Assembly: GCF_900104815.1 (NCBI RefSeq)
Contig: NZ_FNTD01000004.1
Span: forward strand, 186,001-250,000
Direction of reading: 5' to 3'
Source of the DNA: Streptomyces misionensis
GTDB lineage: Bacteria; Actinomycetota; Actinomycetes; Streptomycetales; Streptomycetaceae
DNA length: 64,000 nucleotides
Under the pieces are notes generated by a model, which made no database searches, was not told the DNA's origin, and saw only the letters and a list, made by a program, of their open reading frames with translations. The translations under genes and the position numbers were made by a program. Shown here piece by piece: positions 25,907 through 30,943 of the stretch (position 1 is its first letter; every line of letters starts with the position of its first letter).

Positions 25907-28900
25907 TCAGTGGGCGCAAGGACGTCGGTACGGGGCGATCCTGCCGACGGTGCGCAGCCACTGCCGCTTGGTGATGACCTGGTGGTTGGCCGCGCACATG
26001 CGGTCGTAGACCTCGTCGGCTCGGTCGCTCATGAGCAGGATGCCCGGCCGGTTTCCCGGCAGGACGGTCTCCGTCATGGCCAGCGTGCGAGCGTCCGGGC
26101 TGAACTGCACGTCCATGGCGGAGACCCCCGCGAGCGTCCCCAGATCATTCGGGTCGTGCTTGTTCCCTACGTCCCAGAGCTGGATCTCGTCGACCATGCC
26201 GGCGTGTCCCGCGACGAAGCGGCCGTCGGGGCTGACGACCAGTTCCGTGATGCGGTCCTTAGCCGGAAGCACGCTGGTCTTCTGCGGCCGTGCGCGGCTG
26301 CCGACGTCCCACAGGGAGACGCTCTTGTCGTTCTTGGTGGCGACCGCGAGCGTGGTGTCGTCGAGGAATCCCGCGCTGTTCGTCTGGCCGTCGATCTGTA
26401 CGGCTGTCCCGGGCCGTCTGATGTCGCTGATGCTCACCAGCCACAGCGGTCCCTCGAAGGACCACAGGGCCAGCATGCGGGTGCGCGGGTCGAATGCCAC
26501 TCCGGCGATGCCCTGGTCGAGATGCGGGAGAGGGGGCGCGGCCCGGGACGGCCGTCGCACGTCGTGCAGATCCCAGAGCCGGGGGCCCCCGTCGTCGTAT
26601 ATCAGCAGGGTGGTCGGGTCGAGGAACTGGAGCTCGACCTCGGAGCCCTTGTGTGTGGCGTGCAGCGGGATGGTGGCCGAACGACTCGGACGTCGGGGGT
26701 TGGTGATGTCCCAGACGGTGGCCTGCGAGTCCGTGGCGTTCCCGGCCACGAGTGTTCGTCCGTCGCCGGTCACGGTCGCCCCGCCCTCGGCCCGGAAAGT
26801 CGACAGGTGCACGGGGTGGCGCGGCTCGGTGAGATCCCACAGTGCCAGGGACGAGGCGTCCTGCGTCTGGCTGATCAGCAGTCGCCCGTGCGGCAGGAAC
26901 ACCGCCCGTGTCCACGGCCGGGGCAGGGCGGCGGCGAGTGTGGGATGGTGCGGATCGGAGGTCTGCCAGATGCCGGCCGTCTTTCCGGAGACCGCAGAGT
27001 CGTAGTCCGCGCTGACCGCGATCAGGTGGCCGTCCTCGCTGAACGCCTTGCCGGGTACGCCGGACCCCGGGCTGCTGATGGTGCCGGGCAGCGGCTGCGC
27101 CACCGTTTCCGACCACAGGCTGACCATGCCCTTGTCGCCACCGCTCGCGATGACGGCGCGGTCCGGGCCGACCGCGACCGCGTACACCGGCACTTTGCCC
27201 GGCAGGCTGTCGAACAGGTCGATCCGGCTGCCGGAGCCGGAGCCGGTGATCTCCCAGTAGTCCACCGTGCCGGTCGAGTTCGCCGCCGCGAACCCGGAGC
27301 CGTCCGCGGCGAAACTCAGCGACATGATGACCGCGTCGTCGTTTCCGCTGAAGGTTTCCACGTCCCTGGTCGCCGGGTGGCGGGGATCGTGCACGTCCCA
27401 CACCGCGACGGAGCCCAGCACACCACCGGCGGCGAGCAGGTCGCCCCGCCGGCTGAAGGCCAGGCTCAAGGCCGAGTCGGCATCGCGCGTCGCCAGCAGC
27501 GCGGGCTTGTGCGCAGCGGTGACGTTCCACAGCCGGACGGCGGCCGAGCCGCGGCTCCGCCTCGTCGCTCCGTTCGCCGTGGCGAGCACCTTGCCGTCGG
27601 GGCTGAACGCGACGGCGGTGACCTCGTTCCCGCCGACCGCCAACGAGGTCTCGCCGGGGTGCGCCGGATCCCGCACGTCCCACAGTTGGACGGTGCCGGT
27701 CGCACCGGGCGCGGCGACCGTGCGGCCGTCGGCGCTGAACGCCACACTGGGTACGGCGTCCGTGTCGGCGGGGCTCCCACGCACGGCGCGCACGACGGGA
27801 TGGCCGGGATCGCGCACGTCCCACACGGAGAAGGACCGCCATGTACGGGCGGCGAGGAGGCTTCCGTCGGGGCTGAAGGCGATGGCCGCGGTGCCGTCCG
27901 TGTGCAGCACCGCGCGCGGGGCGGGCCGGTCGGGATCGGCGACGTCCCACAGGCGGATGGTCCGGTCCTTGGAGGCGGTGGCCAGGAGGCGGCCGTCGTG
28001 ACGGAACACCGTGTTGAGCACCCGGTCGGTGTGGCCCGCGAGCGTGACGGGATAGCGGGTGACGTAGGAGGCCAGCAGGCTGCTGCGGGCCTCTTTCGTG
28101 GGGGCGAGTCCGTACGCCGACAGGGCGAGCTGCCGGGCGGTGCCCGGATCGCCGTCTCGCAACTGGTCCGCGAGCTGTGCCAGCTGGCGGGAGGTGATGA
28201 GGTTCTGGCGGTGCGCGGCCGCGCGGTACTGCGTGACCGCGACCAGTCCGCCCAGCAGCGCGGCCACCACCACCAGGGCGATCCCGGCGAGGCCCCACCT
28301 GCGGCGGCGCTGCGCGGCGAGGCTCGCGGCGAGGAAACGACGTTCGTGCGGAGTGAGCGCCGCCTCGTGCTGCGGAGCGGCGAACCACTGGCGGGCCGTG
28401 ACCAGCCGCGTTCCGCCGTACAGCAGTGTCCGGTCGCGGCCGGCGGCCTCCCAGTCGTCCGCCGCGTCGGCGAGCTGCTGGTGCACCAGCAGGCCGGTGT
28501 GGTCCTCGTCGATCCAGCGACGAAGCCGGGGCCAGACCCGGAGCAGTGCCTCGTGCGCGATCTCCGCACGGTCGCCGTCGAGCGTGATCAGGCGGGCTTC
28601 CGCCAGTGCGTCGCGCGCCGCGACGAGGGCTGCGGCCTCCTCGGACGGCCGGCTGGCCAGCAGCTCGGCGAGGGAGATGCGGCGACGGGTGTCCTCGGTG
28701 CCCTTGCCGACGTGCACCATGCGCAGCAGGAGTGTGCGCGCGGCGCGGCGTGCGTCCGGGGACAGACTCTCGTAGACGGTGTCCGCCTGCTTGGTGACCG
28801 CGTTCCACACCCCGCCGGTGGCGGCGTAACCGGCGAGGGTCAGGGTGCGGCCGCCGCAGACGGCCCAGGTCCGCTGCAACGCGTAGGACAGCAGGGGCAG

Positions 28901-30520
28901 GGAGCCGGTGCCGAACGCGGTGGCGTCGCCCGGTTCCCGCCGGGACCCGATGTCGCGCAGGACGGTGTCCGACAGTCCCGCTTCCAGCCGCAGTCCGGCT
29001 GCCTCGGCGGGTTTCTCGATGGCGTCGCGCAGTTCGCCGGGGGTCATCGGAACGACGGGCAACTGGTGTTCGCGCAAGGCGGCGGCCAGTTCCGGATAGG
29101 TCAGGCAGCGCCCGTAGAAGTCGGCGCGGACGCCGATGACGACCATGGCGGGCGGGGGCTGGGCGGCGTCGGGCGAACGACAGGCGGCGCCCAGCGCCTT
29201 GATGAACGCGCGTCGCTCGTCCTCGTCCGGGCAGAGGGTGAACAGCTCCTCGAACTGGTCGACGAGCAGCAGCAACCGCCCGCCCGGCACATCCCTGCCG
29301 CCGGTCGCGACGCGCAGCGCGCGACGCACCAACTCGGGTAGGCGGTCCGGGTGTTCGCGCAGTCGCGCGGCGCACTCGTCCGGCGTCGTCTCCGCACTCG
29401 GGGCGAGCCGCCGGGCGAGGGAGGCGAGGGGTTCCGCACCGGGCGTGAGGGACAGCCGCGGCCAGGTCTGCGACCCGGGGATCCGTAATCTGCCGTGCTG
29501 CACCGCGGGCAGCAGCCCTGCGTGCAGCAGCGAGGACTTGCCCACCCCGGACGGCCCGACGACGGCGATCGGCCCGCCGGTGTCCGACGCCTGCGACATC
29601 GTCCGCAACAGTTCGGCGACGAGTCGCTCCCGGCCGAAGAAGTACCGCGAGTCCTCGGCGGTGAACGGGTGCAGCCCCCGGTACGGGCAGGGCGCCGGGG
29701 GCTGCCCGCCTTGGTCGCCGTCGTCGGACGCGCCGGTGACCGCCGCTGCCGACGGGGCGGCGGCCGCCGGGTTGGGCGCGAGGACCAGGTCTCCCGCCCG
29801 ATCGCTGAGGTGCCGGTGCGGCGCGGGCAGACCACGCCTCGGCAGGACCCGGCACAGCCGGCGGTAGACGTCCTCGGTCGTCAGCTGCGGCAACCCCGCG
29901 GGATCGCCGTCGCGCAACAGCTCGATGAGCGCTCCGGTGAACGCGGTGTACCGGTCGCCCTCCGGGGCGAGCGACTGCTCGTCGGCCGACGACGACGCCA
30001 GGACGTACGTGCCGCCGAGCGAGGCGAGTTCGAAGGCGTGCGCCGCCGCCGTGCCGAGCGCACCGTGGGCCCGGCCGGCGAAGCAGCAGTCCAGCACCAC
30101 GATCACGGACCGCGCCCGGCAGCCGCTCAGCGCCTCCCGCAACGCCTGGTACGGCAGCGCCTTGAACGCCAGCCCGCCCACCAGGTCCTCCGTGGCCTGC
30201 GTGGCCAGGTACAGCTCGTTGCCGGGGCTGACGAGGCCGTGGCCCACGTAGTAGAGCAGCAGGACGTCGGTGGCCTGCTCCGCCACCTCGGTCAGCGCGT
30301 CACCGAGCACGATCGGGTCGCGGGGGTGGAGCAGCGGCCCGCCGCCCCACAGGTTCTCCGGCGCCAGGCCGCACCGCTCGATCAGCAGTCGGGACAGGTC
30401 CTCGACGGTCTCGGCGACGGCGGGCACATCGGGGAGCGCGGACCCGGGCACGTGCCGGCCCGAGCCCACCACCAGGGCCCGCGAGCCGGGTGAGGCGAGC
30501 GCGGTGGGCCGAAGCGTCAT
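25907..30520 (-). CDS. caspase-nSTAND1-TM-WD40 conflict system protein
   Basis: 1,537-residue multi-domain protein. Residues about 12-245 form a caspase-like protease with His94 in YYVGHG and Cys146 in LDCCFAG as the catalytic dyad. About 278-700 is an nSTAND1-type NTPase: entry YRGLHPFTAEDSRYFFGRE, Walker A GPSGVGKSS (322-330), Walker B LLLLVDQFEELF (416-427, Asp421), then VIGVRADFYGRC and a helical arm. Residues 742-763 are one hydrophobic, probably membrane-spanning segment after RRRRW. From about 825 to 1,500 there are around fourteen WD40-type blades (SPDGKVLATAN, LWDV repeats). Known family logic: WD40 senses, STAND oligomerises with NTP, caspase is released to cleave targets, probably killing the cell. 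ATG at 30520 is three bases after the EACC1-like gene. Trigger and substrate are unknown. Confidence 0.9.
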   Translation of the reverse strand: MTLRPTALASPGSRALVVGSGRHVPGSALPDVPAVAETVEDLSRLLIERCGLAPENLWGGGPLLHPRDPIVLGDALTEVAEQATDVLLLYYVGHGLVSPGNELYLATQATEDLVGGLAFKALPYQALREALSGCRARSVIVVLDCCFAGRAHGALGTAAAHAFELASLGGTYVLASSSADEQSLAPEGDRYTAFTGALIELLRDGDPAGLPQLTTEDVYRRLCRVLPRRGLPAPHRHLSDRAGDLVLAPNPAAAAPSAAAVTGASDDGDQGGQPPAPCPYRGLHPFTAEDSRYFFGRERLVAELLRTMSQASDTGGPIAVVGPSGVGKSSLLHAGLLPAVQHGRLRIPGSQTWPRLSLTPGAEPLASLARRLAPSAETTPDECAARLREHPDRLPELVRRALRVATGGRDVPGGRLLLLVDQFEELFTLCPDEDERRAFIKALGAACRSPDAAQPPPAMVVIGVRADFYGRCLTYPELAAALREHQLPVVPMTPGELRDAIEKPAEAAGLRLEAGLSDTVLRDIGSRREPGDATAFGTGSLPLLSYALQRTWAVCGGRTLTLAGYAATGGVWNAVTKQADTVYESLSPDARRAARTLLLRMVHVGKGTEDTRRRISLAELLASRPSEEAAALVAARDALAEARLITLDGDRAEIAHEALLRVWPRLRRWIDEDHTGLLVHQQLADAADDWEAAGRDRTLLYGGTRLVTARQWFAAPQHEAALTPHERRFLAASLAAQRRRRWGLAGIALVVVAALLGGLVAVTQYRAAAHRQNLITSRQLAQLADQLRDGDPGTARQLALSAYGLAPTKEARSSLLASYVTRYPVTLAGHTDRVLNTVFRHDGRLLATASKDRTIRLWDVADPDRPAPRAVLHTDGTAAIAFSPDGSLLAARTWRSFSVWDVRDPGHPVVRAVRGSPADTDAVPSVAFSADGRTVAAPGATGTVQLWDVRDPAHPGETSLAVGGNEVTAVAFSPDGKVLATANGATRRSRGSAAVRLWNVTAAHKPALLATRDADSALSLAFSRRGDLLAAGGVLGSVAVWDVHDPRHPATRDVETFSGNDDAVIMSLSFAADGSGFAAANSTGTVDYWEITGSGSGSRIDLFDSLPGKVPVYAVAVGPDRAVIASGGDKGMVSLWSETVAQPLPGTISSPGSGVPGKAFSEDGHLIAVSADYDSAVSGKTAGIWQTSDPHHPTLAAALPRPWTRAVFLPHGRLLISQTQDASSLALWDLTEPRHPVHLSTFRAEGGATVTGDGRTLVAGNATDSQATVWDITNPRRPSRSATIPLHATHKGSEVELQFLDPTTLLIYDDGGPRLWDLHDVRRPSRAAPPLPHLDQGIAGVAFDPRTRMLALWSFEGPLWLVSISDIRRPGTAVQIDGQTNSAGFLDDTTLAVATKNDKSVSLWDVGSRARPQKTSVLPAKDRITELVVSPDGRFVAGHAGMVDEIQLWDVGNKHDPNDLGTLAGVSAMDVQFSPDARTLAMTETVLPGNRPGILLMSDRADEVYDRMCAANHQVITKRQWLRTVGRIAPYRRPCAH

Positions 30521-30523
30521 CGC

Positions 30524-30916
30524 TCAGCTCTCCCGCGCGGAGTCGTGGGTTCCCGGCCCGTCGAGCGATTCCGACAGCCGACGGGTCAGCTCGGTCACGT
30601 CCTGCGGCGACAGCTCACGCACGGACGGGGCCTTCAACTCGAACGACGCCCCGTCACCGCGCCGTACCGTGAGGGTGACACCCCCCGAGCGGCGACGGAT
30701 CCAGGTGATCAGCACGCTCGCCAGCGCCGTGGCGACACCTCCGGGTCCGAGCGCCACGGAAAGCGTCTCCAGCGCCGAGCCGAGCGTCCCCGGGGCGGGC
30801 GGGGCCGCCTCCAGCCGCACCCGGCCCCGCAGGGACGGATCGGCGACCAACCACTCGCGCAGGGAGCGCAGTTCGTCGGCGGCTCGCCCGCCGTCGACCG
30901 CGACCTTGACGTCCAC
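30524..30916 (-). CDS. EACC1-like effector-associated constant component
   Basis: 130-residue protein directly upstream of the caspase-STAND gene, ending TGA with only three bases before the next ATG. It begins with a beta-strand pattern VDVKVAVDGGRAADELRSL, contains LVADPSLRGRVRLEAAPPAP, a central hydrophobic segment ALGPGGVATALASVLITWI and a C-terminal strand-rich part (GGVTLTVRRGDGASFELKAP). This is the arrangement I recall for the Effector-Associated Constant Component 1 family, which in bacterial conflict systems accompanies caspase, trypsin or STAND genes. It is thought to link trigger and effector; the mechanism is unknown. GTG 30916 is preferred because GGAGG lies four bases upstream; GTG 30943 is the longer alternative. 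Confidence 0.8.
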   Translation of the reverse strand: MDVKVAVDGGRAADELRSLREWLVADPSLRGRVRLEAAPPAPGTLGSALETLSVALGPGGVATALASVLITWIRRRSGGVTLTVRRGDGASFELKAPSVRELSPQDVTELTRRLSESLDGPGTHDSARES

Positions 30917-30943
30917 TTCCCCTCCGGGCCACTCGACGGGCAC

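Follow-up and report, generated by a model that had tools for sequence, protein, structure and literature searches.

Pairs made of a gene for a small EACC1 protein and of a gene for a caspase have been described as 'System 4' by Kaur et al. (2020; PMC7159879). According to the passages of that study dealing with System 4, these pairs are prevalent in actinobacteria, with 671 organisms tabled, and combine a constant core with a variable C-terminus. In the same passages, EACC1 is read as a protein with one conserved membrane helix and the C-terminal domains of the caspase proteins are read as effectors; at least 33% of these caspase proteins contain transmembrane helices and an extracellular PBP domain is mentioned, and a helix between an NTPase and WD40 repeats is not. 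nSTAND1 is named as an occasional partner in the parts of a 2021 follow-up that bear on such pairs (PMC8195603). The present analysis concerns a pair of this kind, an EACC1 gene and a gene for a caspase-nSTAND1-WD40 protein, found in a window that is the whole 64,000-nucleotide stretch of DNA analysed (positions 186,001-250,000 of an 8.16 Mb contig from a Streptomyces-type chromosome). The pair is a confirmed member of the published class and not a new kind of system. However, neither its topology nor the fold of its small protein seems to be what was previously read into such pairs, and the external position of a sensor behind a helix and a globular model of EACC1 go beyond the System 4 passages of PMC7159879.

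We lean slightly towards a reading in which the large protein would be a receptor, a switch and a protease joined in one membrane-spanning chain, with EACC1 as the cytosolic partner of the caspase. In such a model, the part outside the plasma membrane would consist of two WD40 propellers in tandem, their C-terminus capped by a disulphide, and a single helix would cross the membrane. Inside, the nSTAND1 nucleoside triphosphatase (NTPase) would gate the caspase-type protease at the N-terminus. A ligand from outside the cell, or a disturbance of the envelope, would alter the propellers, helix and stalk would relay the change to the NTPase, and the NTPase would switch or cluster on the inner face, leading to activation of the caspase. 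EACC1, as a small ferredoxin-like partner, might be an inhibitor, a cofactor or the first substrate of the protease. A signal arriving at the cell surface might in this way be met by a proteolytic response in the cytoplasm; the scheme further postulates a ligand, clustering, a substrate and, as its outcome, death or arrested growth, cell death being plausible by analogy.

The EACC1-caspase pair and its conserved motifs

Both genes are open frames on the minus strand. The first-pass annotation of this DNA, which mentioned neither this strand nor the helix 744-762 nor the cysteine pair C1509/C1535 discussed below, had described a 130-residue EACC1-like product followed after three bases by a 1,537-residue protein, and the gene calls and the GTG start at 30916 agree with this layout. 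The stop codon of the EACC1 gene ends at 30524, and after a gap of 3 nucleotides comes the ATG (30520) of the large gene; both are presumably expressed from one transcript. GTG 30916 is most plausibly the EACC1 start, given the GGAGGGG stretch resembling a ribosome site ahead of it.

The family assignments made from the letters alone were borne out by a Pfam search, and a match of the small protein to an unrelated family did not occur. EACC1 (PF19953) was found on the small protein (4.8e-34, 117 bits for a cut-off of 23.6), and Peptidase_C14 (2.1e-7), nSTAND1 (PF20703; 1.3e-125, 420 bits) and WD40 (9.7e-31) on the large one. The latter also matches the NCBIfam model NF047832, caspase_w_EACC1 ('caspase, EACC1-associated type'), with 199 bits for a cut-off of 140. 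The proposed His94/Cys146 dyad, Walker A (322-330) and Walker B (416-427) stand up well to comparison, as H94, C146, K328, D421 and E424 are each invariant in the alignment of 43 family members (43/43). With the His/Cys dyad and the Walker residues present, the protein is, by its sequence, a Peptidase C14 and a STAND (nSTAND1) protein. In a wider genome scan for caspase relatives, the best 80 of 566 were kept and an LDCC-type motif was required, so that Cys146 was counted only in the 43-member set; the GHG motif was found by pattern in 75 of these 80 public loci and is visible in the remaining 5. With the caspase profile, sequence searches of solved structures gave weak hits on metacaspase-4 and on a Geobacter protein, and nSTAND1 gave no match.

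The coding sequence looks to be under purifying selection in the single species pair compared. Against Streptomyces misionensis, where the named sequence closest to the caspase domain is found (96% identity), the ratio of nonsynonymous to synonymous substitution rates (dN/dS) is 0.14 for the caspase, 0.26 for nSTAND1 and 0.36-0.48 for the WD40 part. Between the first two, the 33-codon linker (residues 246-278 of the large protein, P0001; 29687-29785, minus strand) has a dN/dS of 1.3 in the same pair, which perhaps reflects relaxed constraint or a fast-evolving cleavage loop. A chance open reading frame (ORF) is ruled out by several families above curated cut-offs together with dN/dS values below 0.5 except in the linker.

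The first-pass annotation had also supposed that the two genes go together, and a survey of 61 genomes (that of the window and 60 of its genus) upholds this. Taking as a pair two matches on the same strand with EACC1 less than 600 nucleotides upstream, a matching caspase gene directly follows 59 of 67 EACC1 matches; of the 69 strong caspase matches, 56 are preceded by EACC1 in this way. As the 67 EACC1 matches were set against the best 90 caspase matches, weaker caspases may stand beside some of the 8 unpaired ones. Around the 80 public loci, EACC1 is upstream on the same strand in 60, downstream in 2, on the opposite strand in 2 and absent from 16, of which 3 cannot be judged (L206 is masked upstream; L249 and L276 are near a contig start). 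The neighbourhood is kept in the rearranged cases, where EACC1 follows the caspase (L235, 13381-13746; L244, 13696-14133) or is on the opposite strand (L217, 9199-9612, minus).

In the genome of the window, all three EACC1 matches precede a caspase. These pairs are near 54 kb, 217 kb and 8,018 kb of the 8,163 kb of the contig (C4), thus all within about 220 kb of its ends; one other genome (G049) also carries a pair near both ends (C1:49,932 and C1:10,626,580), and in further genomes pairs occur far from the ends. The fourth Peptidase_C14 match of the window's genome has no EACC1 match nearby. It belongs to a different large protein of conflict type, in which the peptidase is fused to iHD-CE and to eight wHTH-HSP90-associated stretches (L091, 2367-7151, plus strand). 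Two further weak caspase matches were counted.

A predicted external sensor behind a single helix

Between nSTAND1 and the WD40 repeats of the large protein, right behind an RRRR motif, sits a hydrophobic segment (residues 744-762; Table 1). A segment of this kind follows nSTAND1 in 43/43 proteins of the genus set, the weakest having a mean hydropathy of 1.81; this set joins to the window protein the 42 genus relatives that carry caspase and nSTAND1 among 51 long genus loci fetched. It is likewise present in all 53 public frames having more than 500 residues behind it, out of 57 caspase-nSTAND1 frames. The 4 uncounted frames have little behind nSTAND1, and two of them (L235, L244) have the segment. 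Lysine and arginine residues (K/R) are more numerous before the segment than after it in 43/43 proteins of the genus set and in 52/53 of the public set, where their means per 15 residues are 6.3 and 2.7; the two sets overlap at several loci, hence they are not independent. According to the positive-inside rule, these flanks would place the caspase and the NTPase inside the cell and the WD40 half outside.

Table 1. Coordinates of the gene pair and of the predicted parts of its products (positions in the window).
Feature	Position	Strand	Remarks
EACC1 gene	30524..30916	-	130 aa, GTG start 30916; alternative GTG 30943 gives 139 aa
Ribosome-binding-like GGAGGGG ahead of GTG 30916	30919..30925	-	read from sequence
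Caspase-nSTAND1-transmembrane-WD40 protein P0001	25907..30520	-	1,537 aa
Caspase domain, aa 1-245	29786..30520	-	His94, Cys146 and Cys145 invariant in 43/43
nSTAND1 NTPase, aa 279-697	28430..29686	-	Walker A 322-330, Walker B 416-427
Predicted transmembrane helix, aa 744-762	28235..28291	-	mean hydropathy 2.75; K/R 4 in 15 residues before, 2 after
WD40 region, aa 823-1500	26021..28054	-	about 14 blades by strand count; predicted outside membrane
C-terminal cap, aa 1501-1537	25910..26020	-	two short helices; Cys1509 in first, Cys1535 in tail behind second

The distribution of cysteines points in the same direction. In the genus set, their frequency per 1000 residues is 11.5 before the helix versus 4.0 after it, and after the helix only 46 cysteines are found in 29,122 residues if the last 75 residues are excluded. 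These last 75 residues contain two cysteines in 42/43 proteins, and a C-terminal pair with a spacing of 25-27 residues, C1509 and C1535 in the window protein, occurs in 41/43 proteins of the genus set and in 50/53 of the public set. The public exceptions (L205, L246 and L267) have tails that look cut or frame-shifted; as they are among the 10 of 53 exported halves omitted from alignment A3, the two invariant columns of that alignment are partly a matter of choice. The number of cysteines behind the helix is even in 38/43 and 44/53 proteins, respectively. A disulphide between C1509 and C1535 is likely on this pattern. As a side observation, the EACC1-associated caspase proteins of L226, L237 and L248 have, behind the caspase, 2-3 hydrophobic segments and a C-terminus that is similar and contains cysteines.

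A control was assembled from 66 loci among the listed WD40 matches of 13 and 41 genomes, one per ORF; 4 were dropped for their few blades, and the 62 kept were split according to the presence (44) or absence (18) of a helix ahead of the propeller. In the helix-bearing group, the 25,548 WD40 residues include 16 cysteines and the tail pair is present in 37/44 ORFs, whereas without a helix there are 84 cysteines in 8,487 WD40 residues and the pair is seen in 3/18, including one ORF cut at a contig start (L279) and one that is cysteine-rich throughout (L172). The contrast between the two groups has a Mann-Whitney p of 5e-8, a value that ignores relatedness and serves only as a guide. A first control (21 ORFs listed of 26 loci) went in the same direction except for L189, where the WD40 bounds were misplaced.

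The structural model of residues 735-1537 (AlphaFold2, 44 sequences) has a mean predicted local distance difference test score (pLDDT) of 86.7 and a predicted template modelling score (pTM) of 0.75. It shows, in order, a long helix containing the membrane segment, a helical hairpin, 55 strands and the C-terminal cap, and the roughly 14 blades that can be counted would be enough for two propellers. When the model was submitted to Foldseek, the repetitive WD40 propeller 2ymu came first by E-value and full-length Apaf-1 gave the top query TM-score (0.53-0.54; best 50 rows).

This last likeness bears on a model built on the first-pass annotation, in which the protein would be Apaf-1-like and entirely cytosolic. 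Its WD40 part would detect an invader within the cell, and assembly driven by NTP would then activate the caspase and kill the cell. It shares with Apaf-1 the logic of an NTPase and WD40 repeats set on a caspase, and the conserved caspase and NTPase motifs also fit it. However, the conserved helix, its positive-inside flanks, the depletion of cysteines, the C-terminal pair and the contrast with helix-less WD40 ORFs all speak for an exported WD40 half, so that such a protein appears quite improbable. The helix, flanks and cysteine pattern, taken together, argue strongly that the WD40 sensor half lies outside the cell; the cytosolic WD40 sensor expected of an Apaf-1-like protein is probably not what the window encodes, and this part of the earlier interpretation is probably wrong.

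EACC1: modelled fold and proposed partnership

The AlphaFold2 model of EACC1 (58 sequences) is a compact, ferredoxin-like domain with a pLDDT of 84.8 and a pTM of 0.78. A strand (2-8), a helix (12-25), two strands (33-37 and 50-55), a helix (61-74) and a strand (81-86) would follow one another in the beta-alpha-beta-beta-alpha-beta order of ferredoxin-like folds, with an added strand (91-95) and helices at 96-100 and 104-119. In this model, the published membrane helix corresponds to strand 50-55, a GPGG turn and the 14-residue helix 61-74. Most of the best 50 Foldseek rows are PII/GlnK, CutA and other ferredoxin-like proteins, and a sequence search of solved structures gave chance-level rows. 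A ferredoxin-like fold class, rather than any particular relative, would be a fair guess.

The model has to be weighed against the proposal of Kaur et al. (2020), limited here to the System 4 passages, that EACC1 is a membrane-inserted sensor with one helix and a glycine patch, which would cause autoproteolysis of the caspase and thereby deploy C-terminal effectors. Such a role would be in keeping with the stretch 51-73, which is poor in charges across the 58 sequences, has a mean hydropathy of 0.64 and a low moment of 0.12, and is bordered by D/E at position 50 (50/58) and R at position 76 (57/58). On the Kyte-Doolittle (KD) scale, the stretch exceeds 1.6 in 52/63 cases; alignment A2 holds 57 of these 63 EACC1 stretches with that of the window, and alignment A1 holds 18 relatives with the window. 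The median KD of the EACC1 segment, 1.83, is above that of soluble windows (1.52) but below that of the helix of the large protein (2.44). Moreover, the compact fold is predicted with fair confidence, 14 residues are few for crossing a membrane, and the C-terminal part of the window protein has the features of a sensor rather than those of an effector. As to a single membrane helix in EACC1, hydropathy leans weakly towards it and the AlphaFold2 model contradicts it; the membrane-sensor scheme as a whole appears unlikely.

Within the preferred reading, EACC1 seems to belong to the caspase rather than to the sensor, because it accompanies caspases with and without nSTAND1 alike: it is upstream of 42/57 and 18/23 of them, respectively, at the public loci. 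The pairwise distances of EACC1 also correlate better with those of the caspase (0.66) than with those of nSTAND1 (0.54) and of the exported half (0.34) at 38 of the 42 paired loci.

Several observations nevertheless weigh against a membrane-spanning receptor with a cytosolic EACC1 partner. The order of these correlations is also that expected from the chromosomal closeness of the genes, and an EACC1 match is missing upstream of 13 of the 69 strong caspase matches. Stretch 51-73 could, by its few charges, still be a membrane helix, and the EACC1 model gave no Foldseek match at E<=0.001, with query TM-scores not above 0.39 among the best 50 rows. With regard to the large protein, two of the 57 public frames that end early (L234 and L262) are without a clear helix, and the tail pair is missing in 7 of the 44 helix-bearing control ORFs. 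Finally, the best soluble window of the caspase-nSTAND1 part has a median hydropathy of 1.52 but reaches 2.08 in one protein, above the weakest helix (1.81); because of this cytosolic window, hydropathy alone is indecisive.

A putative shared receptor and its place among known systems

The external receptor looks like a chassis with an exchangeable output, of protease or of DNA-binding type. Two proteins of the window's own genome (L174, 1481-4447, minus; L175, 880-4872, plus) combine HTH_31, nSTAND1, a helix, WD40 repeats and the C-terminal cysteine pair. A third one (L184, 1132-5268, plus) has nSTAND1, transmembrane helix, WD40 repeats and cysteine pair behind an N-terminus without Pfam match in place of the caspase. 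A tree of the nSTAND1 domain, built to look for repeated exchange between caspase and HTH outputs, has the shape of a star, and Nocardia, Amycolatopsis and Dactylosporangium relatives are interleaved with those of Streptomyces; the caspase protein L189 carries the label 'other' in it by mistake. With six candidates scored per genome, no fewer than 123 of the 392 congeneric genomes have a match at E<=1e-30; together with the interleaved tree, this fits an accessory, transferred gene. A 485-kb Streptomyces plasmid (NZ_CP108721.1, 404558-408973) also codes for a protein related to the large one, with 34% identity over 91%.

The HTH_31 proteins invite a further explanation, that of regulated proteolysis instead of suicide. 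The receptor would read the state of the envelope or of development and the caspase would trim a regulator, as one output of the nSTAND1-helix-WD40 chassis. A DNA-binding-type output on the same plan fits signalling, and no defence gene was recognised among the 10 flanking ORFs scanned with Pfam, 5 of which gave a match, the matched ones being ordinary metabolic or regulatory genes. Conversely, in the passages of PMC7159879 Kaur et al. class EACC1 pairs as conflict systems on account of domain variability and a bias to multicellular bacteria, and the accessory distribution is in line with that class. Regulated proteolysis in envelope or developmental signalling is an alternative to be taken seriously, although on balance not the more likely one. 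PADLOC returned weak matches only, one to 'caspase' (1.2e-6) and two to mad (E 0.0015 and 0.014). A phage or prophage gene was considered and is unlikely in view of the metabolic or regulatory nature of those flanking ORFs that have a Pfam match and of a sole viral-scan match at 22% identity; the search gave no phage match for EACC1.

Coming back to the receptor-switch-protease, its sensor evolves faster than its protease in the species pair compared (see the dN/dS values above), which fits the sensing of a changing partner. If the model is right, a filamentous bacterium would decide on the activation of a protease from a signal at its surface through a STAND-caspase chain, a prokaryotic counterpart of receptor-driven caspase signalling. 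If the EACC1 model holds, it would also correct the membrane-sensor reading of EACC1 in the literature. Tentatively, one may go further and imagine a bacterial 'death receptor' in one chain, with external tandem propellers, a helix, an apoptosome-like NTPase and a caspase, in which death would be triggered from outside, a ferredoxin-like EACC1 would be the lock or the first substrate, and the same chassis would serve elsewhere with a DNA-binding output. In the STAND immune sensors that are best studied, by contrast, the signal is an intracellular one.

How does this organization compare with known systems? Apaf-1 resembles the window protein in that an NTPase and tandem WD40 propellers control a caspase. 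It works in the cytosol, however, on a caspase that is a distinct protein and has to be recruited, whereas the window protein carries its caspase in its own chain, has an NTPase assigned to nSTAND1 by Pfam and is predicted to expose its propellers outside. PknD-type kinases have a cytosolic enzyme, one helix and an external NHL propeller as sensor. The HTH_31 proteins mentioned above share the NTPase, the helix, the WD40 repeats and the C-terminal cysteine pair with the window protein and differ by their DNA-binding-type domain in place of the caspase.

Among metacaspases, NACHT-WD40 proteins were found to be widespread in a survey of 2012, whose relevant passages also present a Trichodesmium metacaspase-CHASE2 protein proposed to have its receptor outside and its metacaspase in the cytoplasm (PMC3501461). 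The order metacaspase-NTPase-WD40 is that of the window protein; in contrast, EACC1 does not appear in these passages. The architecture figure of this survey, which marks inside-to-outside helices, may already include a helix ahead of the WD40 repeats. The caspase-nSTAND1-WD40 architecture is not dealt with in the relevant parts of a WD40 survey (PMC5587647), and no experimental study of an EACC1-caspase pair was recognised by title in the literature searched, which mostly excluded subscription papers. In Thiohalocapsa, putative STAND antigen sensors are diversified by diversity-generating retroelements (PMC10907252). According to the parts of that work concerned with them, one sensor with NTPase and lectin domains is predicted to be periplasmic, and sensing is proposed in cytoplasm and periplasm alike. 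These sensors are C-type lectins hypermutated by a retroelement, unlike the window protein, and the same parts present no caspase-nSTAND1-WD40 chain with the NTPase inside and the sensor outside.

TRADD-N or EACC2-caspase pairs have in common with the present one a small protein encoded beside a caspase gene, described in the relevant passages as having an RRM-like fold (PMC8195603). The beta-alpha-beta-beta-alpha-beta order modelled for EACC1 may be likened to it by description; no sequence relation was seen, TRADD-N being absent from the Pfam scan of the 58 EACC1 sequences (best 25 of 28 families). The published class to which the pair belongs is System 4. As in its passages (PMC7159879), a 5′ EACC1 gene precedes a 3′ caspase gene with variable C-terminal domains, whereas in the window EACC1 models as a globular protein and the C-terminal part has the look of a sensor that is exported.

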